From Pseudomonadota bacterium (GTDB taxonomy: Bacteria > Pseudomonadota > Gammaproteobacteria > Burkholderiales > Thiobacillaceae), in assembly GCA_021802555.1 (NCBI GenBank), contig JAJZRU010000010.1, positions 1-64,000 on the forward strand: a stretch of 64,000 bases of DNA, in the 5' to 3' direction. Below are positions 25,423 through 41,098 of this stretch, piece by piece (position 1 is the stretch's first letter; each line of letters begins with the position of its first letter). The position numbers were made by a program, and so were the translations under genes. The notes beneath the pieces are model-generated. The model saw only the letters and a program-made list of their open reading frames with translations, ran no database searches and had not been told where the DNA came from.

Positions 25423-25498
25423 GGGTGCTTAGCTCAGTTGGTAGAGCGTCGCCCTTACAAGGCGAATGTCGGCGGTTCGAACCCGTCAGCACCCACCA
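25423..25498 (+). tRNA. tRNA-Val (anticodon TAC), integration site
   Basis: A 76-nt tRNA with encoded CCA. Acceptor arms GGGTGCT / AGCACCC pair fully, the D arm is TAGCTCAGTTGGTAGAGC, and the anticodon stem TCGCC / GGCGA encloses loop CTTACAA with anticodon TAC. Its part from the anticodon loop to the 3' end is repeated exactly at 41050-41098, marking it as the attachment site of the element to the right. The insertion regenerates an intact gene. Confidence 0.96.
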
Positions 25499-25500
25499 AA
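25452..25500 (+). repeat. attL: 49-bp direct repeat (3' half of tRNA-Val)
   Basis: The 49 bases from CCCTTACAAGG to CACCCACCAAA are identical to 41050-41098. The base before the repeat differs (G versus T) and the sequence after it diverges (TAATGC versus CCTTAT). Such a tRNA-3'-end duplication is the standard footprint of tyrosine-recombinase integration. Confidence 0.95.
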
Positions 25501-25653: not shown

Positions 25654-25743
25654 GCTGGCAAAGAGCAAAATAAAAATATGCATTTCGCTTGACTTTTGGA
25701 TTTTTGTTATAAATTTATTTGCAAGCTCAACCGTTATAGTCAC

Positions 25744-26118: not shown

Positions 26119-26123
26119 TAAGC

Positions 26124-26175: not shown

Positions 26176-26226
26176 CACATCAAAGTCAAAGCGGGTTCCT
26201 CGCGCGCAGCAAGAAGGAGAACTCGC

Positions 26227-26559
26227 ATGAACGCGACCCTTTTGTGGACGACCGAAGACCTGGCGGCGCGGTTGGGTTTTCACACCGCCACGGTGTATGG
26301 CTGGATCAGTGACGGCACCAAACGCTTGCCGCCGCCCGTCATGGTCAACCCGCTTCGTTGGTTTCCTCCGGCGGTCGAGAAATGGATGCTTGATGAGGCC
26401 GAGCGCAATGAAGAAGCTGGCTGGGGGGCACGCAAGAAGAAGCAGCCCCAGGCGCCTCAACCGATCCCCATCCCCCCCGCCCAGCAGGGCGTTAGGCGGC
26501 GGGGCCGGCCGCGCAAAACTGTCGTACAAGCCAGCATGACGGAAGGGGGTGTCCAATGA
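26227..26559 (+). CDS. AlpA/MerR-like DNA-binding regulator
   Basis: A 110-aa protein with an N-terminal winged-helix pattern (LWTTEDLAARLGFHTATVYGWI, then PVMVNPLRWFPPAVEKWM), as in AlpA and excisionase-like proteins. The C-terminal half is basic and Pro-rich, with an AT-hook-like RRRGRPRK. AAGGAG precedes the ATG by 8 bp. The stop overlaps the next start as ATGA, so it heads a translationally coupled run with the primase, helicase and initiator. It may control replication or excision; which one is not shown. Confidence 0.72.
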   Translation: MNATLLWTTEDLAARLGFHTATVYGWISDGTKRLPPPVMVNPLRWFPPAVEKWMLDEAERNEEAGWGARKKKQPQAPQPIPIPPAQQGVRRRGRPRKTVVQASMTEGGVQ

Positions 26560-27575
26560 ACCCCCAGGCCAACATCATCAAGCGCCACCTAGCAGCCCTG
26601 GGCGCGCCCTTGTACCTGGTGACGCTCCGCCGCTCGGGCACGGGACGCGCCTGCACGCTCGACGAGCACACGTCCGGCGAGTTCATCGTCGGCCCGTTCC
26701 TGGCCCGCCTGCGAGCCCGCAACGCGGGCGGGGAGTGCATCTACATCACCCCGCACTGCGAGCACCACCACTACATCCTCATCGACGACCTCGACCGGGC
26801 CGGACTTGATCGACTGATGGACGGGTTCCGCCCAGCCAGCGTCTGCGAGTCATCGCCAGGGAATTTTCAAGCCGTGCTGGTGGCCGAGCGCGAGCCGGCA
26901 TCGACCAACAAGGCCGACGAAGCGCGGGAGCAATCAGCGGCGAACTCGGTCATGATTTTCCTGAACCGTCATTACGACGGCGATCCGAAAATCAGCGCCG
27001 CTCGGCACCCGTTCCGCTTGGCCGGACTCACGAATCGGAAGGCCAAATACCAACAGCCGAATGGCCTTTTCCCCTTCGTCCGCTTGATCGAAGCCCCCGG
27101 CGGCCAATGCGACCGCCTGGCCGACTTGCTTGCCCAGGAGCGCGCCCGCCGCGCGGCCCTGGCGCCGGAGGCGCGGCCGTATGCGCATCAGCAGATCGAC
27201 GACGACGATGCAGGGCTGGCGCGGCCGACATGCAGCAGCGCGATGACGCGCCGGTATGCCGACGAATACGCCCGCCAGCACGCGCTGGCGCTCCGGCTGG
27301 GGTGGGCGGTCAATGAATCAATTATCGATTGGCGGGCCACCCTGGCGCTTCTTAATGAAGGGCACGACCCCGACGACATCGAGGCCGCGCTGCTCGCCGC
27401 GTCCCCGAATCTTGCACGCCGTCACCGCTACCAGGGCGGTGCCGATTACGCCCACAGGACGGTCGCCAAGGCATCCCGCAACAGGGCCGCGAAGGCGGCC
27501 CTTTCCAGCCGCAGCGCCAGCGGCGCGGCGGCGCGGGCTGTGTCTTCCTTCGTGGACGGAGGGGGGCGGTCATGA
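26556..27575 (+). CDS. RepB-type DNA primase (RSF1010 RepB' relative)
   Basis: A 339-aa protein. The central stretch RHPFRLAGLTNRKAKYQQPNG matches the conserved segment of the RepB-family primases of IncQ plasmids and MobA-primase fusions. An upstream ITPHCEHHHYILIDDL strand fits the metal-binding active-site region. These primases start synthesis at ssiA/ssiB sites of IncQ origins. Here the primase is free-standing, not fused to a MobA relaxase as in RSF1010. Start and stop both overlap neighbours as ATGA, so it is co-translated with the regulator and the helicase gene. Confidence 0.78.
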   Translation: MNPQANIIKRHLAALGAPLYLVTLRRSGTGRACTLDEHTSGEFIVGPFLARLRARNAGGECIYITPHCEHHHYILIDDLDRAGLDRLMDGFRPASVCESSPGNFQAVLVAEREPASTNKADEAREQSAANSVMIFLNRHYDGDPKISAARHPFRLAGLTNRKAKYQQPNGLFPFVRLIEAPGGQCDRLADLLAQERARRAALAPEARPYAHQQIDDDDAGLARPTCSSAMTRRYADEYARQHALALRLGWAVNESIIDWRATLALLNEGHDPDDIEAALLAASPNLARRHRYQGGADYAHRTVAKASRNRAAKAALSSRSASGAAARAVSSFVDGGGRS

Positions 27576-28462
27576 GCACCAAGAAGAAATTCCAATTCCC
27601 CCAACCGCTGCCAATCCTGCAATTCTTGCGAGATGAGCCGCCGCCGCTGGACTTCCTTTGGCCAGGCGGCCCCTTGGCCGAAACTGTTTCGACTCTCGTG
27701 AGTCCTGGGGGAGCCGGCAAGTCGTATTTCGCACTCGCGGCCTCTATGGCAGTGGCGACCGGCGGCGCTGCTGACCCCTTGCGCCTGACGCCACAAGTTG
27801 GCGGGAGGGTCGTGTATTTGAGCCTGGAGGATATCGCGCATGTTTTGCATCACCGGGTGTCGGCAATTCGGAAAAATTCAAATCTTCCATGGCGCATCCA
27901 TGAACGAATAGCAGAACAATTAGACCTTGTGGATGCGCTTGGCGCGGGCTTCGATCTAGCTGATCCGGATTGCGCAGATGCGTTAATGGAAAGGGCTGAT
28001 GGGGTGCGACTGCTCATCATCGACACCATGAGACGCGCACACTCGCTCGACGAGAACAGCAACGGTGATATGGCGCGGGTGTTGGGTGTTTTAGAACGTG
28101 TTGCAGCACGGACTGGCGCGGCCATTATGTACTTGCACCACGTTTCAAAAAACATGTATGCAGCCGCCGAACAGCAAGCCGCTGCGCGCGGCGCGTCGGT
28201 GCTGGTCGATAACGCAAGGTGGGCCGGATGGGTGCGAAAGATGGAGGCTACCGAAGCCGAGCGCCACAGCTTGCAAGATCGTGGGCCGCCAGTCGATCCG
28301 CGCTTTTACGTCGAATGGGGGGTGTCCAAGTCTAACTATACCGCGATTCCTAAATCGCAATGGTTGGAACGCGGTAAAGGCGGCGCGCTCAATCATGTCG
28401 AGCTTTTCCCCATTGTTCCGAAGAAGAAGGGGGGCGGCGATGGCGACATCCTCGGATCGTAA
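27572..28462 (+). CDS. RepA-like hexameric replicative helicase (AAA ATPase)
   Basis: A 296-aa RecA-fold ATPase with Walker A SPGGAGKS (residues 44-51), Walker B VRLLIIDTMRRAH and the later IMYLHHVSK stretch with the conserved His pair. Length and layout agree with the IncQ RepA helicase (279 aa in RSF1010), which unwinds the origin 5' to 3' as a hexamer. The position between a RepB-type primase and a RepC-like initiator supports this over a RadA/KaiC-like role. It overlaps the next gene by 23 bp. Confidence 0.8.
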   Translation: MSTKKKFQFPQPLPILQFLRDEPPPLDFLWPGGPLAETVSTLVSPGGAGKSYFALAASMAVATGGAADPLRLTPQVGGRVVYLSLEDIAHVLHHRVSAIRKNSNLPWRIHERIAEQLDLVDALGAGFDLADPDCADALMERADGVRLLIIDTMRRAHSLDENSNGDMARVLGVLERVAARTGAAIMYLHHVSKNMYAAAEQQAAARGASVLVDNARWAGWVRKMEATEAERHSLQDRGPPVDPRFYVEWGVSKSNYTAIPKSQWLERGKGGALNHVELFPIVPKKKGGGDGDILGS

Positions 28463-29444
28463 GAAAAGCCGGAAGCGCCTGCCGGCCGATGCACGCTTGC
28501 GAATCGAGCAGGCGCGGCAGGTGGCGCGACAAGATATGGCCCTTGGTCTGATGTCTCTCTTTCGGCCAATTGCTCTCGCTCATCGTGGTCTGGACAGCAG
28601 CGGAAAACGGAAACGTGAATACCTCGAACTAGAGCAAACTTGGAAGGGCGTGAAGGTCATCGTTGCAGGCCCTGAAATGAGTCAAGCCGAACAAGGGGTT
28701 CTGTTGGCTCTCCTGTCGTTGTCCTTGCAGCAGCAGGATGGCGGCATAGCGACATTAGAAGGGCCTCCCATAGGCATGATTCCGGCCGACAAGCGCGAGA
28801 GCGGCAACGAGGGGAGCAGATACCCCGTCGTGGCTGTAAGAACGACCGTGGGACGTTTATGCTCGGTGCTTGGTGTTCCGGCCGACGGGAACAGCCGGCG
28901 CAGCGTGTTGACGGCCATACGGCGCCTCGCGGGTGTGACGCTCACGGTCATGGGTGGTGGGCGCTGGGCGACCACGCACTTGATCCACAACGCGGCAGGG
29001 GATGACGGAAGCGATTCGCTGGCAATAGTCCTTAACTGGCGCCTGACAACCGCCCTCGCCGGGCAGGGGTATGCGTCGATTCCAATGAAAGACTACCGTG
29101 AGGTGCCTCCTGGGGTTCCGCGCCTGATTTACGCCTGGCTGTGTTCTTGGCTGGCGGCACGCGGAGGGGAGAGACGGATCAGCCTAGCAGCACTGGAGCC
29201 TCACATCTATGGGGACATCGCCGTTGATCGACGTGCCGCGAGCCGCCGTCGTCAGGCCCTTAGACGAGGTCTGGTGGCCTTGCGGGAGATCGGGTGGCAT
29301 ATCGAGATCGACGACTCCGGCATGGCGACCATAGACCGTAGATCCACTGACGCGCTCGCGACATGTACAAGCTCGCGACAAACCCCTGACAAGCTCGCGA
29401 CAGCCGTTCGTCGGAACCAAGCACTGGCGCGGGTTTCCGACTGA
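28440..29444 (+). CDS. RepC-like replication initiator (IncQ type)
   Basis: A 334-aa protein starting at the ATG at 28440 behind AAGGGGGG, overlapping the helicase gene. The second half resembles RSF1010 RepC: SIPMKDYREVPPGVPRLIYA, then SWLAARGGERRISLAALEPHIYG and SRRRQALRRGLVALREIGW correspond to RepC's winged-helix segments (RISMDEVRAL, LCGYVWPS, RKRRQRVREALPELVALGW). RepC binds origin iterons and loads RepA. A longer frame back to 28098 runs inside the helicase gene and is rejected. The following 1.1-kb non-coding region would be the natural oriV. Confidence 0.75.
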   Translation: MATSSDRKKSRKRLPADARLRIEQARQVARQDMALGLMSLFRPIALAHRGLDSSGKRKREYLELEQTWKGVKVIVAGPEMSQAEQGVLLALLSLSLQQQDGGIATLEGPPIGMIPADKRESGNEGSRYPVVAVRTTVGRLCSVLGVPADGNSRRSVLTAIRRLAGVTLTVMGGGRWATTHLIHNAAGDDGSDSLAIVLNWRLTTALAGQGYASIPMKDYREVPPGVPRLIYAWLCSWLAARGGERRISLAALEPHIYGDIAVDRRAASRRRQALRRGLVALREIGWHIEIDDSGMATIDRRSTDALATCTSSRQTPDKLATAVRRNQALARVSD

Positions 29445-29859: not shown

Positions 29860-29910
29860 GGTTGCCCGCGAATTTAAACCTTGAACGTTTAAGGCCGCGC
29901 GGCGCCGCAG

Positions 29911-29996
29911 GCGCCAGCGCCAGCCCCAGCGCCAGCCCCAGCGCCAGCCCCAGCGCCAGCCCCAGCGCCAGCCCAAGACCCAGCCCAAGACCCAGC
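29911..29996 (+). repeat. 12-bp tandem repeat, GC-rich
   Basis: The unit GCCAGCCCCAGC is repeated about five times in register, then two copies of the variant CAAGACCCAGCC follow. There is no unique spacer, so it is not a CRISPR. Being a multiple of three it creates an artificial Ala-Ser-Pro frame. It may be a replication or transfer element, or simple slippage expansion. Confidence 0.75.
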
Positions 29997-30357
29997 CGCC
30001 ACGGGCACGGCCCTGGGCGGGCCGCGCAGCGCCCCGCCAGACCCACCAGATCACGCCAGGCGCCGCGCAGAGCGCGCCGCCGGGCTTCCCCAACAATGGG
30101 AGCCGTATATGGAAGGGTCAGCAGGGGGAAGCAGATGGGGCTTATTCTTCTAAGGCGGTGGCGGTCTCCCCAATTCAAAAAGCGCATCGTTTTCTCTGGT
30201 TGTCTGAAAAAACTACTAGAACGGAACACACCCGTCGCACCTATCGGTGCGCCGGCTGTGTTGCTTCCGCAACAAGCCAGCAACAGAAAACCCGCGCCAG
30301 CCCTCGCGCTTCGCGTGATTGCATCAGCTTCGCTTTTTGCTTGCAGTGGCTTGCATG

Positions 30358-30465
30358 GTATCGGAACGATACTATCGGTAACAACTTGTTACATATTGCT
30401 TCTCATGATTGAATGTGATTGCGTCGTTATATGTATCGTGACGATACTAACTTGCAAATTTGCAA
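30358..30465 (+). repeat. palindromes upstream of the transfer operon
   Basis: GTATCG-GAA-CGATAC (30358-30372) and GTATCG-TGA-CGATAC (30433-30447) are two copies of one 15-bp dyad, 75 bp apart. Between and after them lie the perfect palindromes GTAACAACTTGTTAC (30378-30392) and TTGCAAATTTGCAA (30452-30465). They end 81 bp before the ribbon-helix-helix gene, whose product is the likely ligand. In R388, TrwA binds oriT and its own promoter in the matching place. Confidence 0.65.
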
Positions 30466-30545
30466 CTTAGTGAAATCGACAAAATCGGCTGTAAGCTGAT
30501 CTTGTTGGTTGCGATAGGCAACTTTTTTGCAAGCAGGAGAAGCAG

Positions 30546-30770
30546 ATGAAAGCGTTAACGATTCGAATCCAGGAAAACGAGTTCGATTGGCTGCAACAGG
30601 CTGCGGAGGCGGCGGCAACCACGCCTACCGGCATGTTGCGTAGCCTTATTCTGCAAGCGCGCGAATCGGCTGCAACCGACCATCGCCTGCAGGCCCTGGA
30701 GGCGCGTCTGCTGGCCGCCATCAAGCAGGTCGGTGAGTCCGTGGCCGCCCTGGAACCGGCCGAGGACTAA
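30546..30770 (+). CDS. ribbon-helix-helix protein, TrwA-like transfer accessory factor
   Basis: A 74-aa protein. Its first 45 residues fit a ribbon-helix-helix: strand MKALTIRIQ, helix EFDWLQQAAEAA, turn TTPTGM, helix LRSLILQA. A short coiled coil follows. It has a good AGGAGAAG ribosome site. The order small RHH protein, coupling protein, MOB-F relaxase equals trwA-trwB-trwC of R388, where TrwA binds oriT, represses the operon and stimulates relaxation and TrwB. That role is inferred from context and fold; the sequence is too short for a firm family call. Confidence 0.7.
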   Translation: MKALTIRIQENEFDWLQQAAEAAATTPTGMLRSLILQARESAATDHRLQALEARLLAAIKQVGESVAALEPAED

Positions 30771-30773
30771 GCC

Positions 30774-32990
30774 ATGGCCTGGCCGCGCCGCGACCCCCCG
30801 CCCCACCTCCGGGGCGATCCCCAGCCCTCACGGCTGGGTGAGGGTTTTGCCGTCGCCGCCCTGGGCAGTGCCGCATCTGTAGGACTGGCCACTTGGGGAG
30901 TCAGGAACTGGATCATCGGCAAAAACCCTTCTTGGTCCACCGTGCCCCTGATCCATTTCCCTAGTCTCGCCGCCAAGGCCATCCAGGCCGCTCCCTTGGA
31001 CGTGGCCTGGCCCGCTTGGCTCATGGTGGCCGGTGCGGGCGTCGGGATCGCCGCCAGCGCCGTGGCCGGCTACTTGGCCGGCCGGCCCAGGGGTGGATGG
31101 GCAGGCGTCGAGTGGAAAGCCGGGCCGGTTTTGCAAACCGAGCCGCCGCCGCCCGACCCCAAGGCCGGCGGCATCGAGATCGAGATCGCCCCAGGTTGGC
31201 GAATCAGCCAGCGCGACGAGACCCGCATGTTCGAAATCATCGGCTCGACTGGTTCGGGCAAAACGACCGTCATTCGTCCACTCATGGATCAAGCGGTCGA
31301 GCGAGGCGACCGGTGCCTGATCTGGGACACGAAATCTGATTTTTCAAAGGCACTCAAGAAATGCATCATTTTCGTTCCTTGGGACAAGCGGGGGGCCAGG
31401 TGGCGGATTGGCCGAGACCTGAATAGCAAAACGAAAATCCAGGGCTTTGCATCAAGACTGTGCCCAGTGCCAAAGTCCGGCGATCCCATGTGGGCGGCGG
31501 CGTCGGCGGCGGTGGTGATCGCGGCGTGCCTAAAACTTGCAGAGGAAAAAAAAGGAAACTGGTTTTTGGTAGACCTGCGCGGGCAACTGTTGGAAATGAT
31601 CCACTCCCTGGAGCATTTGCAGACAGTCGTCCAAAAGCATTACCCGGAAGCCTCCGGCATTGTGGTCGATTTGAAATCGAAAACCCTCAACTCAATCGTA
31701 GTTCAGCTAGTGGCAACGCTGCAAAACGTCCTTATGTTGGGCGAATTGGACGGGGAACTGGACAAGGAACTTTCGAAAACAAATCGGCCAGCTTTTTCTT
31801 TTTCCATAAATCAATACCTTGCCCTTGATGACGCGCGGCGCTGGCTGCCGCTGGTCATGCCCGGCAACCCAGGGGCGCCAGGGCTGGTGGCTGCCTATGT
31901 CGGGGCTGTGGTTGATGTGGCCGCCGACGTCCTCGTGTCGAGGCCCGAGCAACCGCCCCAGGCGGGCAGGTGTTGGCTGTTTCTGGATGAATTTCCGCAG
32001 CTTGGGCGAATCGACAGCGTCATCCGGTTGCTGCTTGTCGGCCGGTCAGTGGGCGCCAGGGTTGTCCTTGGTTACCAAACTCCGGCGTCGGTTGTGCGAA
32101 CGTCGGATGAAGAGACGCTTCGAGAAATACAGGCGAACACTTCAATCAAAATCTTTTGCCAGATTCAGGATCACGAGGGCCGGAAGGCGGCCAGTCAAAC
32201 ATTGGGGAAAAGCCATTGGCGAGTATGCCGAAGAACCATAAGCAACAACAGCGTCGGTGGTGTCGGGGCGCCCGGCAGCACAACAAGTACGCAATGGCAG
32301 GATGTTGAGATCGACTGCGTGACCCCAGAACGTCTGGGCGAAATCAGCCCCGATGATTATGGCGTCGAGGCGATTTTCCGAGTGGGCAAGCTCGATCCCG
32401 TTTTTCTCAAGTTGGAACACCTTGAGAAACGCGAATTCCGGGCGGGCCGCGACCCCTTGGACGTGGCGGCGCCGAAGCTGTCGTTGCACAACGAACAACC
32501 GGCATCGCCACCTGCTGCCGCCACCACGGTGGTGCCGCCCCAGGACGACACCACGGCGCACCACGCTGCCGCGCAGCCACAACAGGAGGAGCATGCCCAA
32601 GCTGCCGACGATGACATCACCGCGATGATGGCCGGCCGCCCGGCCGGGGGGCAGGTGCAGGATTACCTGCCCAGCCCGCAAATGCTCTCAAAGCTGGAAG
32701 GCGAGATCGATGGGCCTGTCGAAATGGCGGCTGATCACTTGGCCACTATGGCGGTGGACGCCGTCGCGCCAGGGCTGGGGAGCGCATTGGAAATGCTCGA
32801 CACTGTTGCGAAGGTCGTTCAATCCGGCCAGCAGGTCGGTGCCCCGGATGCTTCTCAGCCATTGCCGATCCATTCTTCCGGCGCGGCTGAAGAGCCCGCA
32901 GAGCCCGCTGCGCCGGCCAAGAAAAAACGCAAGTTCCGCCGCCGCCGTGACGCCGAGGCCGAGCCTGAAACTGAGCAGGAGATCGACTAA
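30774..32990 (+). CDS. type IV coupling protein (TraD/TrwB family)
   Basis: A 738-aa inner-membrane ATPase that would link the relaxosome to a secretion channel. Two N-terminal membrane helices lie at about 25-45 and 79-100. The ATPase has Walker A GSTGSGKTT from residue 157 and Walker B WLFLDEFPQLGRID near 401. Conserved DTKSDFS and GYQTPASV segments match TrwB. The last 180 residues are Ala/Gln-rich and end in a basic RRRRDAE tail, probably for relaxase contact. The stop overlaps the relaxase start (TAATG). It begins 3 bp after the RHH gene. Confidence 0.88.
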   Translation: MAWPRRDPPPHLRGDPQPSRLGEGFAVAALGSAASVGLATWGVRNWIIGKNPSWSTVPLIHFPSLAAKAIQAAPLDVAWPAWLMVAGAGVGIAASAVAGYLAGRPRGGWAGVEWKAGPVLQTEPPPPDPKAGGIEIEIAPGWRISQRDETRMFEIIGSTGSGKTTVIRPLMDQAVERGDRCLIWDTKSDFSKALKKCIIFVPWDKRGARWRIGRDLNSKTKIQGFASRLCPVPKSGDPMWAAASAAVVIAACLKLAEEKKGNWFLVDLRGQLLEMIHSLEHLQTVVQKHYPEASGIVVDLKSKTLNSIVVQLVATLQNVLMLGELDGELDKELSKTNRPAFSFSINQYLALDDARRWLPLVMPGNPGAPGLVAAYVGAVVDVAADVLVSRPEQPPQAGRCWLFLDEFPQLGRIDSVIRLLLVGRSVGARVVLGYQTPASVVRTSDEETLREIQANTSIKIFCQIQDHEGRKAASQTLGKSHWRVCRRTISNNSVGGVGAPGSTTSTQWQDVEIDCVTPERLGEISPDDYGVEAIFRVGKLDPVFLKLEHLEKREFRAGRDPLDVAAPKLSLHNEQPASPPAAATTVVPPQDDTTAHHAAAQPQQEEHAQAADDDITAMMAGRPAGGQVQDYLPSPQMLSKLEGEIDGPVEMAADHLATMAVDAVAPGLGSALEMLDTVAKVVQSGQQVGAPDASQPLPIHSSGAAEEPAEPAAPAKKKRKFRRRRDAEAEPETEQEID

Positions 32991-35854
32991 TGCTGAGCCT
33001 CCACGGACTTTCTGGCACCGCCGCCGCCGACGCCGCCCGCATCGCCGACTACCCCCGCGAAGACCGAGAGCGCCAGCAGGAGCAGGCCAACCAGGCCGAA
33101 GACTACTACAGTGCGGGTGGCGCCCCCAGCGCCTGGATGGGCAGCGGCGCCGCCGCCATGGGCCTGGCCGGCTCTTCTGTAGAGCGCCAGGCCGTTTTAA
33201 ATACCATGCAGGGCCTCGATCCACACACCGGTGAGCCCGTGGTGCAGGGCGCCGGACCGGCGAGAAGGTACGGCACCGATTTGACTTTTTCTGCTCCGAA
33301 ATCCGTCAGCCTGGCCTGGGCCATCGGCGACGAGAAAACACGCGCGTCTATCGAGGCCGCGCAGCGCCTGGCAGTCGCCAAAACGCTGGAGTACATTGAA
33401 TCCGAACTCTCGCTTGCCCGCCGTGGTCGTGGTGGTCACGAACGAGAATCGGCCAAGCTTGTAGCCGCGACTTACCAGCATGGCTCATCCCGCGAGCGCG
33501 ATCCTCAATTACATACGCATGCCGTATTGATGAATTTGGGCCAGCGTGTTGATGGTAGTTGGGGCGCCATCGAGTTCGGGCAAGTCTACGACAACAAAAT
33601 GTATTTGGGGGCCGTCTTTAGAGCGGCTTTGGCTCAAGAGCTGGTTAACCTGGGTTACGCCATCGAGCCGGACAAAACAGGCACCTTCCGAATTTCTGAT
33701 AGTCCACGCGATGTTGAGTGGGACAACTCCCGGCGCCGTCAGCAAGTCGAGGCCGCCCTGGCAGAGTCCGGCTTCAAGGGTGGGAAGGCGGCAGAGGTAG
33801 CTGCGAAAGCCACCAGGCGGGGCAAGGAAATCACTGACGCCGACACACTCAGGCGGGAATGGTCGGAACGCGCCGCCGCGTTTGGATTCACTCCCGAAGC
33901 GGTCGATGCGTTGCGAACCTACCAGCAGGCCGCCGAACCCGATCCCCCCGCCATCCTGGCCGGCCTCACGCAAAACCAATCGACGTTCAACCAGGACGAA
34001 TTGCGCATGGCCGCGATGGTGGCGGCCGGGCAGTCTGGGCGAGGCATCGAAGCCGCGCGTGACCTGGAGGCCGCCTGCCAGGCGCAGGCCGTTCAGCTCC
34101 GGGCGCCAGACGGTGGCCTGCATTTCACGACCAGGGAAATCCTCGAAATTGAAAAGAGCGTCGTTGCTGCCGGCAAGCGCCTGTCCACCAGCCAGGCCGG
34201 GGCCATCCCAGCCGCGACGGTGGCCGCTGCCATCGAAAAATTTGAGGCTCGGGTTGGCTTCAAGCTTTACGACGAACAGCGGGCTGCACTGGAATACATG
34301 ATGGGCGGCGGCAGTCTCAAGCTGATTCAAGGGGATGCCGGCGCTGGGAAAACGACCATTGCGGATGCTGCCCGAATGGCCTGGGAAAACGCGGGTTTCA
34401 GGGTGTTGGGTTGCAGCCTGGGAGGCAAGGCGGCGAGCGGTCTCCAAAAGGAGGCCGGCATTGAATCCAGTACCTTGGATTCTCTCTTGATGCGTCTCGA
34501 CAAAGGAGCTGAGGCGCTTGATGCCAAGACCGTCGTCGTCATGGACGAGTCCGGCACGGCGGGCGCCCGCCACATGTCTCGTTTGCTGGCCCATGTGGAG
34601 CGGGCCGGTGCGCGCCTGGTGTTGGTCGGCGACACGAAACAGTTGGCCGCCGTCGCGGCAGGCACGCCCTTCCGCGACTTGCAAAAGTCCGGTCAAGAAG
34701 TTTTTCACCTGAAACAGAACAATCGACAGATCGTTGAAAAACTTGAACGAATTCAGGCCCTCATCGGCGAAGGGAAGATGGCCGAGGCCCGCAAACAGCT
34801 TGCCCGGCATGGCCTCAAGATCAAGGACGTTCCCCAGGCCCTTGCGGAAGCGCGTGGCACCCGTGCGGCAGTGAATGACGCCGCCGTAGGTGACATCCGC
34901 AAGGCACTGGAAAGACTCGTCGAGAACAAGGCTGTCCATATCGCTCCCGTTGCCGATGGTCTGCCCCAGACCATTGAACAATGGGCGCGGCGGGGAGGCG
35001 AGCTGCGCCCACAGGAAACCTTGATGTTGGCCAGTACGCGGGCCAGCGTCGCACGCCTCAACGACGCCGCGCTGGAGCGTTTGCGTGAGAAAAATTTTCT
35101 TGGCCCTTCCGCTACCACCATGGTGCGCGACCGTGAAGGAAACAGCCTTGGACAGCGCGAATTCAGCGAAGGCGGCAGGATCATTTTCAAAAAAACGGAC
35201 CTTCGTGGCCTGGGTGTCAGCAACGGTGAGCTTGGCACGATCCAGCGCATCGATCACGGGAAGAATGGCCCGATTCTGACGATCCAGGTTGACGGTGGTC
35301 GCGTCGTGAAAATCGAACCAGACGCCCCCAAGCCCGAAGATTGGAAGTCCGCAAAAGCCGCGCCTGGACTTGGCTACAGCCACATCGAGCACGGCTACGC
35401 CATGACTGTCCACAGCGCCCAAGGCGTCACGGTAGACCGGGCCGTGGCCTATGTCGATGCTGGCCCCTTGATGTCCAAGGAACTCGCATACGTCGAACTC
35501 AGTCGTGTCCGAATTTCCACCGACGTTGTTTTCTCATTCGAGACCATCGCCCGCGAAGAGGCCGCGCACGACATCGATCCGGCCGAGGCCGAACCAGACC
35601 TCGACCGCGTGAAAAAGATCATTGCACGCATGGAACGGTCTGCTGAAAAAACGAGCAGCCTTGATTTTGAGGTTGTAAACGAACCTCTCGAAAAATCCGT
35701 TACTGCACTTGAGGCCGAGGCCGCCGCGCCCACCGCGCCGCAGCCGCAACCCGAACCCGCGCCGGCCACGCCCGCGCCAGAACCCCAGCAACAGCAACCC
35801 GCACTTCAGCAGGAGATCGAAAATGTCCTCGACGAACTCGAACTTGAGCCGTAA
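32990..35854 (+). CDS. MOB-F relaxase-helicase (TrwC/TraI family)
   Basis: A 954-aa two-domain protein. The relaxase domain has candidate nicking tyrosines Tyr21 and Tyr39/Tyr40 and the metal-binding histidine triad His164, His175, His177 (QH...DPQLHTHAV), with the same 11-residue spacing as TrwC. The family stretch RYGTDLTFSAPKSVSLAW is intact. A RecD-like helicase follows, with Walker A GDAGAGKT at 448-455, MDESGTAGARHMSRL, LVGDTKQLAAV and motif VI MTVHSAQGVTVDRA. The C-terminus is a Pro/Ala/Gln-rich tail. It nicks oriT and unwinds the transferred strand. Confidence 0.93.
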   Translation: MLSLHGLSGTAAADAARIADYPREDRERQQEQANQAEDYYSAGGAPSAWMGSGAAAMGLAGSSVERQAVLNTMQGLDPHTGEPVVQGAGPARRYGTDLTFSAPKSVSLAWAIGDEKTRASIEAAQRLAVAKTLEYIESELSLARRGRGGHERESAKLVAATYQHGSSRERDPQLHTHAVLMNLGQRVDGSWGAIEFGQVYDNKMYLGAVFRAALAQELVNLGYAIEPDKTGTFRISDSPRDVEWDNSRRRQQVEAALAESGFKGGKAAEVAAKATRRGKEITDADTLRREWSERAAAFGFTPEAVDALRTYQQAAEPDPPAILAGLTQNQSTFNQDELRMAAMVAAGQSGRGIEAARDLEAACQAQAVQLRAPDGGLHFTTREILEIEKSVVAAGKRLSTSQAGAIPAATVAAAIEKFEARVGFKLYDEQRAALEYMMGGGSLKLIQGDAGAGKTTIADAARMAWENAGFRVLGCSLGGKAASGLQKEAGIESSTLDSLLMRLDKGAEALDAKTVVVMDESGTAGARHMSRLLAHVERAGARLVLVGDTKQLAAVAAGTPFRDLQKSGQEVFHLKQNNRQIVEKLERIQALIGEGKMAEARKQLARHGLKIKDVPQALAEARGTRAAVNDAAVGDIRKALERLVENKAVHIAPVADGLPQTIEQWARRGGELRPQETLMLASTRASVARLNDAALERLREKNFLGPSATTMVRDREGNSLGQREFSEGGRIIFKKTDLRGLGVSNGELGTIQRIDHGKNGPILTIQVDGGRVVKIEPDAPKPEDWKSAKAAPGLGYSHIEHGYAMTVHSAQGVTVDRAVAYVDAGPLMSKELAYVELSRVRISTDVVFSFETIAREEAAHDIDPAEAEPDLDRVKKIIARMERSAEKTSSLDFEVVNEPLEKSVTALEAEAAAPTAPQPQPEPAPATPAPEPQQQQPALQQEIENVLDELELEP

Positions 35855-36059
35855 ACCATTCGAATTTCCCGACTTGGACGGGATGGCCGACGCCCTGTCC
35901 ATAAAAATCGTGTGGTGGCTCGCTGGTCGGCGCCGCCAGCGCCACGGGCTGCCGTTGCCGGCCAATTGGTACGAGGTGCCGCGTGTGACGCCTGGGCTCT
36001 TGCGGTGGTGCCGCCAGCAGTCTGCGCGGTTGGTCATCCGGCGTTGTGTATTTTTTTGA
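35823..36059 (+). CDS. small hypothetical protein, 78 aa
   Basis: Starts at the ATG at 35823 with AGGAG 7 bp upstream and overlaps the relaxase C-terminal codons by 32 bp in another frame. The product is basic and Trp/Arg-rich (WWLAGRRRQRHGLPLPANWY). I do not recognise it. The overlap suggests it is co-translated with the relaxase. Confidence 0.6.
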   Translation: MSSTNSNLSRKPFEFPDLDGMADALSIKIVWWLAGRRRQRHGLPLPANWYEVPRVTPGLLRWCRQQSARLVIRRCVFF

Positions 36060-36074
36060 TTTGAGGGGGTGACC

Positions 36075-36302
36075 ATGAATCCAGTTCGCCGAGCTTTGAA
36101 ATCCCGCCACGAATTTCTTGTCGGCGCGGCCGAGGATGCCGCCGATGAAGATTGGCAAGATCGGGTGGGTGCCGCCGGTAAGCGCCTGGCCCAGGCGGGC
36201 GGCGAGGGCGAGGCGGAAGTCCGGGCTTTCTTTATTTTTTTCTTGCTCCTGGCCGCCGTTGCCGTCTTCGCCTTTTTTATTTTAGGTGTCAGTAATTCGT
36301 GA
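36075..36302 (+). CDS. small tail-anchored membrane protein, 75 aa
   Basis: The ATG at 36075 follows GAGGGGG; an in-frame GTG lies 6 bp earlier. The first 50 residues are charged and helical, and residues about 52-73 form one hydrophobic helix (FFIFFLLLAAVAVFAFFILG) near the C-terminus, so the protein should sit in the inner membrane facing the cytoplasm. Family unknown. It lies 15 bp after the previous gene. Confidence 0.6.
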   Translation: MNPVRRALKSRHEFLVGAAEDAADEDWQDRVGAAGKRLAQAGGEGEAEVRAFFIFFLLLAAVAVFAFFILGVSNS

Positions 36303-36314
36303 GGGAGGGCGATC

Positions 36315-36563
36315 ATGCAAAAAATGGTTTATAGACGCTGCCCAAAAAACGAGCAATGGGAAGATCAAATTTTTTTGCGCGCGCGTAATGCTCGCAAAAA
36401 AAAGCTTGGCGACCCCGCTGACGAAGCGCAAGACCGCGCGGCGCGGGCCGACGAGCGCAGCGATATGCGGCTGCTTTTTTGGGTTGGGGGGTGCTATCTC
36501 GCGCTGCGGCTTGGCGAGGCCGGCATGACTTGGTTTGGCAAAATTTTTCTTGGGTGGAGCTAA
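36315..36563 (+). CDS. small hypothetical protein, 82 aa
   Basis: A GAGGGAGGG ribosome site precedes the ATG. The product is very basic in the first half (FLRARNARKKKLG) and has a hydrophobic helix near residues 53-68 (LLFWVGGCYLALRLG). The stop overlaps the next start (TAATG). Family unknown. Confidence 0.58.
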   Translation: MQKMVYRRCPKNEQWEDQIFLRARNARKKKLGDPADEAQDRAARADERSDMRLLFWVGGCYLALRLGEAGMTWFGKIFLGWS

Positions 36564-36853
36564 TGGAATTCGAAAAGTCTTTGCTTCCATTGCGGGAATT
36601 CGCCGGTTTGTATTACTCGTGTTTGGCTAATTTTTCGGCAGTGGGAATACCCACCGATGACACCGCCGATCCGATTTGCGACGACGCTGATTTGATTGTT
36701 TGCGTTCAACTATTGCGGCGCGGCGTGCCGGCCGATGAGCTGGCCGGAGCCGTGTGCCATTCCCCAAATTGGCGAGTGCGGTGGGGCGGCCATGCCTACG
36801 CGAGGCGGACGGTCAAGCAGGCGCGGGGAATTTTGGAGACGATGAAAAAATGA
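36563..36853 (+). CDS. small hypothetical protein, 96 aa
   Basis: Starts MEFEKSLLPLREFAGLYYSC at the TAATG overlap and ends at an ATGA overlap with the next gene. It contains several cysteines (YYSCLANF, DPICDDAD, IVCVQLL, AVCHSPNW), which are not arranged as a clear zinc motif. The C-terminus is basic. Family unknown. Confidence 0.58.
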   Translation: MEFEKSLLPLREFAGLYYSCLANFSAVGIPTDDTADPICDDADLIVCVQLLRRGVPADELAGAVCHSPNWRVRWGGHAYARRTVKQARGILETMKK

Positions 36854-37059
36854 GCACTGCTGAAAAAACAGGCACCCCAAAAGAGATCGGAACGATGGGA
36901 AAGCACGAAGCTTCGACTCGGTTCCCGCCTTCCGTGGTACGTGAATCGTTGCAAACAAACAACGCGAAAAGTAAAACTGTTTCGCATGATAATATCTTGC
37001 AAAACCCTTGCGAAACCCGCGCCAATACTGGCATTGCGCCCGGTCGGCAATCGCGTTAA
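36850..37059 (+). CDS. small hypothetical protein, 69 aa
   Basis: The ATG overlaps the previous stop as ATGA, the main argument that it is translated. The product is hydrophilic, Lys/Thr/Asn-rich and probably disordered, with no motif. Family unknown. Confidence 0.42.
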   Translation: MSTAEKTGTPKEIGTMGKHEASTRFPPSVVRESLQTNNAKSKTVSHDNILQNPCETRANTGIAPGRQSR

Positions 37060-37108
37060 TGTCCCTTCACCCGCACCCTGCGGGCCTCAAAACTTGAAAG
37101 GACACGCG

Positions 37109-37330
37109 ATGAACAACCCGACCCCCACCATCCCCATCCCCACCCGCATCCCCTTGCCGAGCCCCGCCGCCCTGGCGGCCGTGCCGGACATCCTGCCGCC
37201 GGAGGTGGAGCGGCTGCTTGATTGTCTAGAGCGAGTTGCCGAAGCGTGGCAACCTGCCACGCCCGGCGATGCCGAGTTGCTGGACAGGCTGGATGCTGCC
37301 AGGGCGTCCGCTTTTGGCGTTACGCGGTAA
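37109..37330 (+). CDS. small hypothetical protein, 73 aa
   Basis: AAAGGA precedes the ATG at 37109. The N-terminus is Pro-rich (NNPTPTIPIPTRIPLPSP), followed by an acidic helix (PEVERLLDCLERVAEAW). Its stop codon lies inside the first of five GTTAC-type palindromes (37319-37331). Family unknown. Confidence 0.55.
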   Translation: MNNPTPTIPIPTRIPLPSPAALAAVPDILPPEVERLLDCLERVAEAWQPATPGDAELLDRLDAARASAFGVTR

Positions 37331-37656
37331 CATTCGGAGAGTTACGCTGTAACGTAAAATAGTTATAGTGTAACTTTATTCAGCCTCGTATTCGGCGCCC
37401 ATTTTTTCGGCCCAAGCCAGGATTGCTTTCTCGACAATCTCCCTTTTTTTAATTCCGTCCGCCTGGTCGCAAAGCCGCGCCAGGGCTGCGGCGGCGCTCG
37501 ATGACAGCATCACTTGGAGCCTGGTCAGCAGCAGGCCGTCGGGGTCGTGGAGCGCCCGCTTCCTGTATTCTTTTTGCCGCTCCGCATTGCTCTTTCTCAT
37601 GCTTTTTCCCTTCCAGAAATAGTTACATTGTAACTATTCTAATGTTACGCTGTAAT
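37319..37656 (+). repeat. five copies of a 13-bp palindrome GTTAC-n3-GTAAC
   Basis: Copies: GTTACGCGGTAAC (37319-37331), GTTACGCTGTAAC (37341-37353), GTTATAGTGTAAC (37362-37374), GTTACATTGTAAC (37622-37634) and GTTACGCTGTAAT (37644-37656). Starts within each group are 21-22 bp apart, two helical turns. Three copies lie just 3' of the minus-strand repressor-like gene and two in its promoter region, so they look like operators bound cooperatively by its product. Confidence 0.82.
37376..37600 (-). CDS. small repressor-like protein (ribbon-helix-helix type), 74 aa
   Basis: The product begins MRKSNAERQKEYRKRAL, a start shared by small plasmid and phage regulators, then TRLQVMLSSSAAAALARLCDQ and IKKREIVEKAILAWAEKM give a strand-helix-helix pattern. 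The gene is flanked on both sides by the 13-bp palindromes, which points to autoregulation. It is the only gene in this part of the element on the minus strand, opposed to the transfer-side genes. Base composition is slightly lower in GC than its neighbours. Fold assignment is by eye. Confidence 0.65.
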   Translation of the reverse strand: MRKSNAERQKEYRKRALHDPDGLLLTRLQVMLSSSAAAALARLCDQADGIKKREIVEKAILAWAEKMGAEYEAE

Positions 37657-38059
37657 AAGTCAAGGGGGGGCTGGCGCCGAAGGTTTTTTGCTTGCGCGTG
37701 GGTCGCGCCGAAGCTGACATTCCGCCTACACTGCACCCACGGTATCGCCAGGTCGCTGCGAGCCGCGCAGGGCGGCAAGCAACCCCTCGCGCCAGCCCTG
37801 ACGGGCCGGGGGCTCTGCTACGCGCCGCCCCCTCTGTCACTCCGGCTTGCAACCGCCCTAGTCGCGCGCGGCTCTCCGCTCAAGGGATGGGCGATACCGA
37901 GGGTGCAGATTCAACAGGCGGAAGACAACCGCCTTTTTTCGTCGTTCTGTTTTTTCTCCCCCCCCCTCCGCCCCCCTTCGGGGGGAACGGGCTCTCCAAG
38001 GGTGCAGGTTTTTAAACGGCGCATTCCGTGCCGAACCACTCCCCCAGGAGCAAAACGCC
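37601..38059. other. 459-bp gap with hairpins
   Basis: No credible gene. Left part: promoter and two operator copies of the minus-strand regulator. Right part: very C-rich, with two structures. The first is GGCGG-AAGACAA-CCGCC followed by six Ts (37917-37939), the second CCCCC-TTCG-GGGGG (37972-37985). The stretch GAGGGTGCAG recurs as AAGGGTGCAG at about 37900 and 37997. The right end should hold the promoter of the DUF6573 gene. Confidence 0.5.
37917..37939 (+). terminator. intrinsic terminator
   Basis: Stem GGCGG / CCGCC with a 7-nt loop, followed directly by TTTTTT. The stem is only 5 bp but all GC. It reads in the plus direction, though no plus-strand gene ends nearby, so it may end a non-coding transcript. 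Confidence 0.5.
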
Positions 38060-38497
38060 ATGACCTATTCCCACCCCTCCGCGATGTCCGACATGATCGA
38101 GATTTTCGGCTCCCCGATCCATACTTACAGCCGTGCCCAAGCCCTGGCCGATGGGGTCTTGGTGGACGTGTCAGAAGCCGCCGCCGAGCGCGGCTTCAAG
38201 GTGCCCGTAGCCATGACCAGGACGGTCTGGGAGGACTGCGTAGCTTGGGCCGAAGCCGACAGCGACCGCCAGACTTACCAAGACCAGGAAGGCCGCCTGC
38301 ACGACGTTCTATGGCTGGCCTGGACGTATGCCCGCATCGCCCGGCGCCGCGATACCGACACCATCACCTACGAGCTGCGGCGCGTGCCCAGGGGGGGCCG
38401 TGCCACCCGTCCCCGGCGGGTGGTGCTGACTCTCAAGATCCACGGCGGCGACCACGGCGAGCCGGTCTGCACGATCATGATGCCCGGCGAGGGCTGA
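38060..38497 (+). CDS. DUF6573-family protein
   Basis: A 145-aa protein whose N-terminal half carries the DUF6573 signature: TYSRAQALADGVLVDVSEAAAERGF, then VPVAMTRTVWEDCV and GRLHDVLWLAW. The C-terminus ends VLTLKIHGGDHGEPVCTIMMP. The family is common on plasmids and integrative elements and has no known function. AGGAG precedes the ATG. A copy of its last 15 codons is found again at 38878-38930. Confidence 0.8.
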   Translation: MTYSHPSAMSDMIEIFGSPIHTYSRAQALADGVLVDVSEAAAERGFKVPVAMTRTVWEDCVAWAEADSDRQTYQDQEGRLHDVLWLAWTYARIARRRDTDTITYELRRVPRGGRATRPRRVVLTLKIHGGDHGEPVCTIMMPGEG

Positions 38498-38569
38498 AAA
38501 TTTTTTTCAATACCCCTAAATATTATTGTCACTGTGACGTTAATAAGATATCACCTTCAGGAGTCCGCC

Positions 38570-38881
38570 ATGAACATGAACATGAACATGAAAAACGACA
38601 CCGCCACAAAACCAGGCCGCCCCAAAACCGCCAACCCGAAATCAGGGGCGGAACGCACCAGGTCATATCGGGCGCGAGTTGTTTTCACTAATCCTGAATT
38701 GGGCGCAATTAAGTTCATATGGGGGTATGGATCGAACCTCGACACGCGCGAGGCGTGGGATGAAACGGCTTGGATGCTCGAAGGCATACGGATTTGGACA
38801 ATGAGCGAAGCGAAAATCGAAGAACTGCGATTTTTGATAGGACTGGCCGACGTGCGCGCAGAAATGTCGGAGGGGTGTTGA
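38570..38881 (+). CDS. hypothetical protein, 103 aa
   Basis: The ATG at 38570 follows AGGAG. The gene opens with a run of the hexamer ATGAAC (three copies), giving MNMNMNMKND. Residues 20-40 read NPKSGAERTRSYRARV, sharing the pattern KSxAERxxxYRxR with the start of the 37376-37600 product, so the two may be distant relatives in DNA binding. The C-terminal half is helical. Family unknown. Confidence 0.6.
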   Translation: MNMNMNMKNDTATKPGRPKTANPKSGAERTRSYRARVVFTNPELGAIKFIWGYGSNLDTREAWDETAWMLEGIRIWTMSEAKIEELRFLIGLADVRAEMSEGC

Positions 38882-38930
38882 CCCTCAAAATCAAAATCCA
38901 TTCCGGCGACCACGGCGAGCCACATCACTA
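38878..38930 (+). pseudogene. duplicated 3' fragment of the DUF6573 gene
   Basis: GTTGACCCTCAAAATC... to CGGCGACCACGGCGAGCC repeats, with changes, the stretch at about 38422-38462 of the DUF6573 gene; it encodes LTLKIKIHSGDHGEP against LTLKIHGGDHGEP. The rest of the gene is missing, so it is a relic of a second copy, overlapping the previous gene's stop. Confidence 0.6.
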
Positions 38931-39015
38931 CTTGCTCGCTTGCTCGATGGCGGTGACGCTGCAGAAGGCAAATAGACGACCCACTCGATCTGATGATAGA
39001 GTTTGCTAAGGAAGC

Positions 39016-39402
39016 GTGGGAGAAAACGTGACTGAGAAGCTAGAGCCCTTGACCATCAAGGAAGTCGATGATTTCCTAGCTGGGTTAGATAAGAAACGTT
39101 GTCCTTGGTGCGATGGCAACCAATGGGGCGTTCATATTGACAAAACGAATGACTCTCCAAATCTGCGCGGGCTCCCTCAAATGCAAATCAGTCTTGGAGA
39201 TGATGGATTGCTAAAGGCCCAGCTACATGTAGGGGCAAACGCACTTCCGATAATCGTCGCGCAGTGCAATGATTGTGGGTATATGTATACTTTCAATTAC
39301 CTGTCTATCATGGCTAAGATTCGTCGGCTGGAATCTGCGCTAAAGGGTGACGATGTCAACTCAGGTGGTGAGCAGGGTGACCAAACCGAAAGTCCCGCAT
39401 GA
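39016..39402 (+). CDS. zinc-ribbon-like protein, 128 aa
   Basis: Start GTG at 39016 after AAGGA, or GTG at 39028 after GGGAGA. The product has two paired cysteines, KKRCPWCDGNQW (about residue 30) and VAQCNDCGYMYTF (about 92), a likely zinc ribbon enclosing a beta-rich segment. The C-terminus is acidic. The gene is AT-richer than the replication and transfer genes and overlaps the next start as ATGA. Family not recognised; with the next gene it forms a two-gene cargo beside the integrase. Confidence 0.62.
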   Translation: MGENVTEKLEPLTIKEVDDFLAGLDKKRCPWCDGNQWGVHIDKTNDSPNLRGLPQMQISLGDDGLLKAQLHVGANALPIIVAQCNDCGYMYTFNYLSIMAKIRRLESALKGDDVNSGGEQGDQTESPA

Positions 39403-39902
39403 CTGCATCAGTTCATTCCATAGATCCTAATGCTGATATAAATCGTTTCCTGTCAGATTCAGCCGACGATGTTACGGTTGCAAGAGCTACGACACCCATC
39501 ATGAACGCACCAACGCGTGAGGAATTTGAGGCCAGGATAGAGGCCGTTGAAGCCAGGATGGACACCCGCGTCGTTCAGATGACCGGGGAGCTTCATGGAT
39601 TCGTGACAGAACAGCGCGCTCGCGATATTGAGCGCGATAAGCGTTTTGAAGAACGCGATAAGAGGATTGAACTTCTAGTAACGAATGCAGAACAGTCCGC
39701 CGACGTAGCTCGTTCGCTAAAATCAAGCATGTGGGCAGCATCGGCCGCCATTATTCTTGCCGTGATCGGTACGGTTGTGGCTTCATACTTCGCAAACCAA
39801 CAATCCAATTTGGCTATTGTTCAGTCGGTCATCGCTGCATTTCAGCAAGGTGCGCAGTCTCCCAGTTCCGCCACTAACAAACGTGGCGCACTCAAACCAT
39901 AG
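39399..39902 (+). CDS. coiled-coil membrane protein, 167 aa
   Basis: Translationally coupled to the zinc-ribbon gene (ATGA). Residues about 35-100 are a long charged coiled coil (REEFEARIEAVEARMDTRV, RFEERDKRIELL), followed by one membrane helix at about 110-130 (MWAASAAIILAVIGTVVASYF) and a short tail. The topology is a cytoplasmic coiled coil anchored in the inner membrane. Proteins of this shape are common in mobile elements, but I know no function. Its 3' end overlaps the integrase gene by 11 bp, tail to tail. Confidence 0.65.
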   Translation: MTASVHSIDPNADINRFLSDSADDVTVARATTPIMNAPTREEFEARIEAVEARMDTRVVQMTGELHGFVTEQRARDIERDKRFEERDKRIELLVTNAEQSADVARSLKSSMWAASAAIILAVIGTVVASYFANQQSNLAIVQSVIAAFQQGAQSPSSATNKRGALKP

Positions 39903-40932
39903 TGCGTTTCTTGATGGGTTTTTTGGTGACTGCTTTAGCATCTTCCGCCTGCGCAAGTTCCTTGGCGATTTCCTTGACGGACGGGTGGTAGTACCGGTTG
40001 GTCATTTTTGGGTCACTGTGTCCAATTATTTTTGACAGCTTCTTTCCGTCTAGCACTTTACCAAGCCTACTCGTTGCCTCATGCCTGCTGTCGTGCAGCC
40101 GAATATCAGTAAGGCCGGCACGGTTTCTTGCTCGTATAAATGCCTGGGTGATGGAGTTCGCTTTCACCTTGAAAACGCGTTGGTCTTCGTCATCGGCGGG
40201 AGGGCGGGATAAAGATTTGAGCAATCGGACAGCGGCCGGAGATAAAGGCACTTCGCGGGGGCTTCCGTTTTTTGTTTTTTCAAGAAGAATCACTCGATCT
40301 TGAAGGTCTATTAGATTCCAGGTCAATGACGCGATCTCCCCCCGTCGCATTCCGCTCTCTATTGCCAGGCGCAGGAAAGCGGCAAGAACCGACGAGCCCG
40401 TGTTCTTGCAGATTTCCGCAATTTCTTTGTCGCTAATCCTACGGGCTCGCGCATCATTCACCCTCGGCAGTTCCGCATCCGCTACCGGGTTCACCAAGCC
40501 TTTCATTTTCCAGTTTCGCCGGGCCACGGTGAACAAGTTGCGCAGCACATTCAAGCGTCGGCGAATAGTTCCTGGTTTGAGCCCTTCTTGTTCCCACTTT
40601 TTAATGATCGATTCAACGTCCCCAGACTCGATCTTTGACAAGGGAAGCTTTGCGAGCGAAGTCTCGCTGAGGATGCCTATAACCGACTTTTCTTGCAGGG
40701 CGCCACGCTTCGATTCTGTACGCTCTTCCTTATAACGTTCCAGTGCAGCAGCGAGGGTGGTGGCCTTGGCCTCTTGCATGTCATCCCACCGGCCACGCTC
40801 GACACGGCTTTCCTCGCGCCGAGCCCATGCCTCGGCATCACTCTTGAGGCGGAACGTCTTCGAGGTCGAGACGCCATCGCGCCGGATGCGGGCTCGAATT
40901 CTGCCGTTCGGTTGTGTTATAAAAGTGGCCAT
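39892..40932 (-). CDS. int: tyrosine recombinase / integrase of the element
   Basis: A 346-aa phage-type integrase starting MATFITQPNGRIRARIRRDG (arm-binding domain); a longer frame to 41031 crosses the att region and is rejected. Catalytic residues in order: Arg in ESGMRRGEIASLTW, Lys in LEKTKNGSPREVPL, HxxR in RLHDSRHEATSRL, His in IIGHSDPKMTNRYYHP and the nucleophilic Tyr in the same stretch. It reads leftwards from the right end, with its start only 118 bp from attR. It should catalyse integration into tRNA-Val. No ribosome site is evident. Confidence 0.93.
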   Translation of the reverse strand: MATFITQPNGRIRARIRRDGVSTSKTFRLKSDAEAWARREESRVERGRWDDMQEAKATTLAAALERYKEERTESKRGALQEKSVIGILSETSLAKLPLSKIESGDVESIIKKWEQEGLKPGTIRRRLNVLRNLFTVARRNWKMKGLVNPVADAELPRVNDARARRISDKEIAEICKNTGSSVLAAFLRLAIESGMRRGEIASLTWNLIDLQDRVILLEKTKNGSPREVPLSPAAVRLLKSLSRPPADDEDQRVFKVKANSITQAFIRARNRAGLTDIRLHDSRHEATSRLGKVLDGKKLSKIIGHSDPKMTNRYYHPSVKEIAKELAQAEDAKAVTKKPIKKRTMV

Positions 40933-40933
40933 G

Positions 40934-40990
40934 GGTGGTGTAGGTGGTGTAGGTTGATGGTGGGTAAAACGGTGTCCCCATTTTGTCCCC
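40934..40990 (+). repeat. repeats upstream of the integrase, candidate arm sites (right)
   Basis: GGTGGTGTA is repeated in tandem at 40934-40942 and 40943-40951. GTGTCCCC (40972-40979) and TTTGTCCCC (40982-40990) follow; the latter word also occurs three times near attL. Both sets lie within about 120 bp of attR and partly in the integrase promoter, so binding could also autoregulate the integrase. Confidence 0.5.
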
Positions 40991-41049
40991 GAATTTTGAA
41001 ATAATCCGGAAACCCGCACCAATCCTAGCACATGGTGGGTTGATTTTCT

Positions 41050-41098
41050 CCCTTACAAGGCGAATGTCGGCGGTTCGAACCCGTCAGCACCCACCAAA
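41050..41098 (+). repeat. attR: 49-bp direct repeat
   Basis: Exact copy of 25452-25500, covering the anticodon loop to CCA plus three bases of tRNA-Val. The 5' half of the tRNA is absent here, so it is not a gene. Chromosomal sequence leading to ppiD resumes at 41099. Confidence 0.95.

Follow-up and report, generated by a model that had tools for sequence, protein, structure and literature searches.

The window, the whole stretch of 64,000 nucleotides of Thiobacillaceae DNA analysed here, contains a mobilizable element of about 15.6 kb (25452-41098) that is bounded at both ends by an exact direct repeat of 49 bp. Next to the integrase gene, the element carries two small overlapping genes encoding a putative zinc-ribbon protein and a coiled-coil protein with one predicted membrane helix. 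The features are as follows.

25452..25500, + strand: att repeat of 49 bp, 3' end of tRNA-Val (exact repeat)
26227-26559: HTH-like ORF, weak
26556..29444, + strand: replication genes for RepB primase, AAA ATPase and RepC (Pfam)
30774..35854, + strand: coupling protein (TrwB/TraD-like) and TrwC-type relaxase (Pfam)
38060..38497, + strand: DUF6573 gene, upstream of the pair (Pfam PF20213, E 9.3e-26)
38534-38881: ORF between the DUF6573 gene and the pair
38891..38921, + strand: 31-bp copy (87%) of the 3' end of the DUF6573 gene (38433-38463), candidate mosaic junction
39016..39402, + strand: first gene of the pair, 128-aa four-cysteine putative zinc-ribbon protein, PHROG 4293 (CPWC...CNDCG)
39399..39402, + strand: ATGA overlap of start and stop codons, 4 nt
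39399..39902, + strand: second gene of the pair, 167-aa coiled-coil protein with one predicted C-terminal membrane helix (residues 113-131)
39892..41031, - strand: tyrosine integrase ORF (Pfam Phage_integrase, E 8.3e-26), likely ATG start at 40932
41050..41098, + strand: att repeat, identical 49 bp, at the opposite end of the element (exact repeat)

The replication genes are of the RSF1010 type. No mating-pore gene was seen among the scanned subset of the element's ORFs, and a search of 111 genomes, the window's own included, returned a single related integrase (G058, 43% identity), located at a contig end. A low-complexity repeat with translations of the SPSA and GLGLAL types lies at 29756-30283, between RepC and the coupling protein.

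The first-pass annotation had described a zinc-ribbon gene and a coiled-coil membrane gene joined by ATGA, placed at the integrase end and lower in GC than the element backbone, and this description holds. Both ORFs and their 4-nt overlap were confirmed, the second gene and the integrase ORF converge and share 11 nt at their 3' ends, and the GC content of the two genes (48.6% and 50.6%) lies 11-13 points below that of the coupling-protein/relaxase span (61.6%). The overlap likely couples translation of the two genes. The start codon of the first gene is GTG 39016; GTG 39028, which has GGGAG five nt ahead of it, is a possible alternative. GC3 is 0.48 for the first gene and 0.46 for the second, against 0.62-0.84 in six other genes of the element; the coupling-protein and relaxase genes have values of 0.69 and 0.68. 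The low-GC block extends beyond the pair, since the integrase (GC 0.54, GC3 0.57) and the ORF directly upstream of the pair (GC3 0.61) are low as well. The copy of the DUF6573 gene end sits 94 nt upstream of the pair, and its alignment score was reached by none of 500 block shuffles; it is compatible with a mosaic junction in front of the pair. Promoter and terminator scans gave yields no higher than in shuffles.

The first protein matches PHROG 4293, an uncharacterised phage family of the PHROG database, with an E value of 2.6e-6 (residues 6-108 against positions 8-119 of 124). It has exactly four cysteines, in two CxxC pairs (C29, C32, C84 and C87), and these are invariant across 12 aligned zinc-ribbon sequences. 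A profile built from 11 relatives (alignment A6 after removal of the protein's row) gives it a score of 38.6 bits, a value reached by none of 5000 shuffles in which the cysteines and the adjoining P and G were held fixed (best 22.7). Judged from its sequence, it probably binds zinc. The structural model, of modest confidence (pLDDT 67.8, pTM 0.50), has a helix at each terminus and, between them, a beta core that surrounds the cysteines. It found nothing in the PDB below E 0.001 (best 0.15), and a profile search of solved structures gave no match under E 0.03. Using VIA-align, zinc ribbons of an archaeal RNase P component, TFIIS, an RNA polymerase I subunit and NrdR appear at Z 2.1-2.6; these neighbours agree with a zinc-ribbon fold of the model without proving it, because unrelated chains are intermixed and the top row (Z 3.6) is itself an unrelated chain. 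A match below the cut-off to the Lar restriction alleviation family (PF14354, E 0.047) was set aside as four-cysteine noise.

To see where such genes recur, the family and profile of protein 1 were searched in sets of 300, 369, 398 and 148 genomes, the window's genome being part of the first three, and protein 1 or its family was also searched in 101 relatives and a phage collection. Eleven other zinc-ribbon loci were found, without the second gene in the query: nine in genomes (G307, G348, G222, G372, G522, G977, G1109, G1180 and G1093), one in PHB10 and one in Yersinia phage vB_YenM_30.14. The surroundings of these loci were viewed across a few kb. In five of them (G307, G222, G977, G1109 and G1180) the next gene, overlapping or abutting, encodes a coiled coil followed by one C-terminal transmembrane segment. 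In one more, G1093, the coiled-coil ORF has an in-frame stop before the transmembrane segment (the interrupted coiled-coil membrane ORF of locus L066 spans 1767-2300), and the called first ORF begins inside the zinc ribbon, with the frame open further upstream. Two loci (G372 and PHB10) have another membrane protein, lacking a coiled coil, in the next position, and in three (G348, G522 and the Yersinia phage) no membrane partner is evident. Homologues that occur singly had been named at the outset as an argument against a defence module; they exist in part, in these three of 11 loci, beside the five that are paired.

A repressor-type gene, recognised by eye, lies upstream on the same strand in seven of the 11 loci, directly so in five (G307, G977, G1180, PHB10 and the Yersinia phage) and about 1 kb away in two (G222 and G1109), and the other four lack one. 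The repressor-proximal position is a recognised site of exclusion genes (PMC8585504 and PMC7067206).

Behind the zinc ribbons of G977 and G1109, and more weakly in G1180, the coiled-coil protein is of a second, PHROG 3556-like type. A second partner type, with a Gly-rich stretch followed by a (M)LEARVARLE-like coil, was seen in loci L018 (1808-2480), L064, L065 and L066; in L018 another small ORF with a coiled coil and a transmembrane segment follows. The PHROG 4293 gene of G348 (L011, 5767-6102, reverse complement) is solitary and apparently chromosomal, near typA- and truB-like ORFs, and the PHROG 4293 profile also finds matches in the control genome of Methanocaldococcus jannaschii.

Direct homologues of the window pair were not confirmed in viral contigs, none of either gene was found in plasmids, and none of protein 2 in phages. 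Protein 1 has one match only in phages, to PHB10 (25.7% identity, E 0.8), whose protein matches PHROG 4293 at E 2.4e-5, covering only the half with the second CxxC. Two candidates among the 101 relatives were dropped as apparent chance matches: one to protein 1 of 48 residues inside a 572-aa frame (G019, E 0.0085) and one to protein 2 in a frame with a stop (G085, E 9e-4). No DNA resembling the PHB10 locus turned up in the E. coli genomes, nor did the zinc ribbon of G372 in plasmids or that of G307 in phages or viral contigs. PHROG 5820 was not seen in 148 genomes of the order of G1109, a set in which the controls were silent too.

The second protein has a single hydrophobic segment at about residues 113-131, preceded by a heptad-periodic, charge-rich stretch, as judged by a crude scan for heptads and hydropathy. 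Just before the membrane helix stand an Arg and a Lys, and the sequence suggests a topology with the coil in the cytoplasm and the short tail outside. When we applied our own crude rule for this architecture to 192 distinct ORFs from 15 sources, most of which were picked for holding such genes, nine ORFs passed, and all nine are of this gene type, the window's included; at least three members (L010/G307, L043 and L059) escaped the rule. A search of 300 genomes with the coiled-coil alignment A4, which itself contains the proteins of the window, G307 and G222, returned only these three and G165, a coiled-coil repeat without a transmembrane segment that was dropped. Matches to synaptobrevin (Pfam, E 0.0011, below the cut-off) and to other coiled-coil Pfam families were set aside as coiled-coil noise.

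A tblastn search of phages with the coiled-coil protein of G307 gave five records; HK244 and HK542 matched at E 7e-10, and a Klebsiella phage at E 1e-3. Both HK phages carry the coiled-coil membrane gene, together with an upstream partner that overlaps it, in the interval from cI to pL/N, where lambda has rexAB. The coiled-coil gene belongs to PHROG 5820 in both HK542 and the Klebsiella phage, while the upstream partner is PHROG 5893 in the former and PHROG 26809 in the latter. Among 5,426 complete E. coli genomes, 50 have a chromosomal match to the HK542-type pair, and in 48 of these the match covers 80% or more of the query; the one chromosomal copy inspected shows the order cII, cro, repressor, pair, N, ral. 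A scan of viral contigs gave 27 loci, of which 25 were usable once two short end matches had been dropped. In 21 of them (L022-L042) the first gene is PHROG-5893-like and overlaps the second by 4 nt, and a zinc ribbon takes its place in the other four (L043-L046), where the coiled-coil protein is 68% identical to that of HK542; the zinc ribbon of L043 matches PHROG 4293 at E 1.3e-31. In the 12 representative viral-contig loci that were read, the genes follow diverse repressors, in some with one extra small ORF between, and the repressor is directly upstream in L043, L044 and L046.

A genome scan added six further coiled-coil loci. Xenorhabdus griffiniae has a zinc ribbon in front of the PHROG 5820 gene, X. 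anantnagensis has PHROG 5893, Yersinia aleksiciae has PHROG 4231, and two Xenorhabdus and one Buttiauxella have other small proteins as the upstream partner. The N-terminal string MVKCxKCLTLG(E/D)VM is common to the first genes of X. griffiniae and X. anantnagensis, which differ in the remainder, a pattern resembling a recombination joint. Behind the same repressor type, as judged by eye, PHB10 carries a zinc ribbon with a two-TM protein and L042 carries genes of the PHROG 5893 and 5820 types. The variety of first genes before a PHROG 5820-type gene means that one family of second genes pairs with several first genes at one site. The PHROG 5893 protein (HK542, L019 2423-2857; the same type occurs in L022) was modelled as a beta-sandwich of the Ig-like kind (pLDDT 66.5), and its top PDB matches are the carbohydrate-binding domain of Wzt, RhoGDI and the AGS-C domain of the Pycsar protein EcPycC.

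How closely the second protein of the window is related to the phage coiled-coil proteins was assessed in several ways. It has the architecture of PHROG 5820, a coiled coil followed by one C-terminal transmembrane segment in the same crude scan, and a short motif is common to both, TREEFEA in the window and SREELDA in the phage proteins (consensus (S/T)REE(L/F)(D/E)A). It gave no match to PHROG 5820 up to E 5; PHROG 9415 appeared at E 0.034. Against the phage coiled-coil profile it scores 9.1 bits, which was reached in 3 of 1986 scored full shuffles and in 30 of 2000 segment/heptad shuffles, the latter preserving most of the TREEFEA motif, and hhalign gave a probability of 5%. Since neither the shuffles nor hhalign were significant, we limit the claim to the same architecture and the same partner, with homology unproven.

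The first-pass annotation had also proposed that the pair may be a defence system, in which a soluble metal-binding sensor acts with a membrane-anchored coiled-coil partner. The pair does recur as a unit elsewhere, often beside a repressor-type gene, and the sensor-and-partner architecture is a sensible reading; against this, neither protein matches anything in PADLOC-DB 2.0.0 up to E 5. No company of known defence genes was seen: among the pair and seven other ORFs of the element, the PADLOC scan gave a single weak match, in one of the seven, to REase_I (E 0.0039). Weak PADLOC matches of the relatives (ZorA E 0.0051, LmuB E 0.0056 and PDC-S64 E 0.012) were set aside as noise. Likeness to Rex was considered through family scans alone, and no Rex family was named for either protein in the Pfam, PADLOC, PHROG and NCBIfam scans. 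The PHROG numbers of these families gave no literature match, and no description of the pair was recognised among the literature listed, in partial texts, for zinc ribbon, coiled coil, prophage exclusion and HK542/HK244 immunity, so that a prior description is possible. A figure legend of the DefensePredictor paper (PMC13092281) lists zinc finger, TM and coiled-coil labels.

The nearest known arrangement is that of RexAB, which in lambda, as in the P. putida P1, Sbash and CarolAnn types, consists of two genes, soluble then membrane, like the window pair, and whose lambda site, after cI and before pL/N, is that of the pair's phage relatives. In PMC12894663, RexAB is presented as a soluble sensor with a membrane effector, RexA being a DNA-binding protein and RexB being described as an ion channel, whereas the window encodes a four-cysteine putative zinc ribbon and a single-TM coiled coil. 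The window copy also differs in site, since it lies on a mobilizable element with no repressor recognised alongside. PMC8585504 and PMC7067206 describe the cI-N interval as a mosaic hotspot of accessory genes, rexAB and bstA among them, and report that bstA is expressed from the promoter of cI. BstA of prophage BTP1 is, according to PMC8585504, a prophage-encoded defence gene after the repressor in the cI-n hotspot; it is one protein with a DNA-based self-immunity element, whereas the window holds a two-gene module with no repressor seen alongside. The PHROG 5893/5820 pair of HK542 and HK244, annotated as hypothetical proteins, shares with the window the architecture of the second gene, the short motif and an ATGA-type overlap; it differs in the first gene, modelled as an Ig-like beta-sandwich rather than a zinc ribbon, and the overall similarity of the second proteins is not significant.

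We give a probability of about one half to the reading that the window pair is a RexAB-like exclusion module of a sensor and a membrane effector, carried on a mobilizable element. The analogy with RexAB would be one of function, and membership of the pair in RexAB is not claimed. In such a module the soluble zinc-ribbon protein would sense, or be captured by, something that appears at infection, and the second protein would be held in the inner membrane by a tail anchor, its coiled coil lying in the cytoplasm and mediating oligomerisation. Contact between the two proteins would then trigger an action at the membrane, either a block of entry or a stop of growth, directed at superinfecting phages, and exchange of the sensor would change the cue. 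As cargo of the element, the module would protect the host cell and hence the element itself, and we infer that this copy would work like those of the phages without an adjoining repressor. A wider scheme is more tentative: the tethered coiled-coil effector may be kept and its soluble partner swapped according to the infection cue, at the lambdoid rexAB hotspot and on mobilizable elements. That the swapped partners would comprise the zinc ribbon, the Ig-like beta-sandwich and further classes of small proteins is likewise put forward as a conjecture.

It is unlikely, in our estimate, that the pair is instead a toxin-antitoxin system, with the zinc ribbon as antitoxin and the coiled-coil membrane protein as toxin, which would stabilise the element and block phages perhaps only incidentally. 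Antitoxins of the MqsA kind bind zinc, a small soluble gene precedes an overlapping membrane gene, the carrier is a mobile element that brings replication genes of its own, and in L066 the second ORF is broken before the transmembrane segment with the first frame open, as after toxin loss. However, replacement of the first gene across families before a conserved second gene at a repressor site is more like sensor-effector modules, and three of the 11 zinc-ribbon genes stand without a second gene.

The pair might instead keep other mobile elements from entering the cell, or serve the transfer or excision of the element that carries it. This would suit a pair that adjoins the integrase of a mobilizable element with relaxase and coupling protein, the more so as conjugative elements have membrane exclusion proteins. 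We nevertheless regard such a role as improbable when set against phage exclusion, because a repressor-type gene precedes the zinc ribbon in seven of the 11 other loci, within the few kb viewed, the lambdoid pairs sit in phage immunity regions, and neither window gene has a match in plasmids.

The position directly after cI in lambdoid phages might also indicate an accessory factor of the lysogeny switch, a module that tunes the phage repressor, as has been proposed for RexA, and that the element acquired by chance. RexA is reported to influence the lambda switch (PMC11077077). We hold this to be quite improbable, since the upstream repressors vary while the module is constant, no repressor was recognised next to the window pair, and a membrane anchor would be superfluous for a switch factor. 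Finally, sequence comparison does not prove the second gene homologous to its counterparts at the other loci, yet two unrelated adjacent ORFs with no joint function are a very improbable explanation, given that order, close coupling and architecture are alike in five loci found via the first gene only and that all nine architecture matches among the 192 background ORFs are of this gene type.

The pair in the window belongs to a kind of gene pair that has received little study. Its relatives in resident phages often occupy the rexAB site of lambda, and it may keep other phages out. If the exclusion reading is true, pairs of hypothetical genes scattered over the proteobacteria would constitute a sensor-exchange exclusion system at the rexAB/bstA hotspot, one type of these pairs being on the chromosome of 50 of the 5,426 complete E. 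coli genomes. The reading lends itself to direct testing in E. coli K-12, and the swapping of partners would offer a natural route to what each sensor detects.
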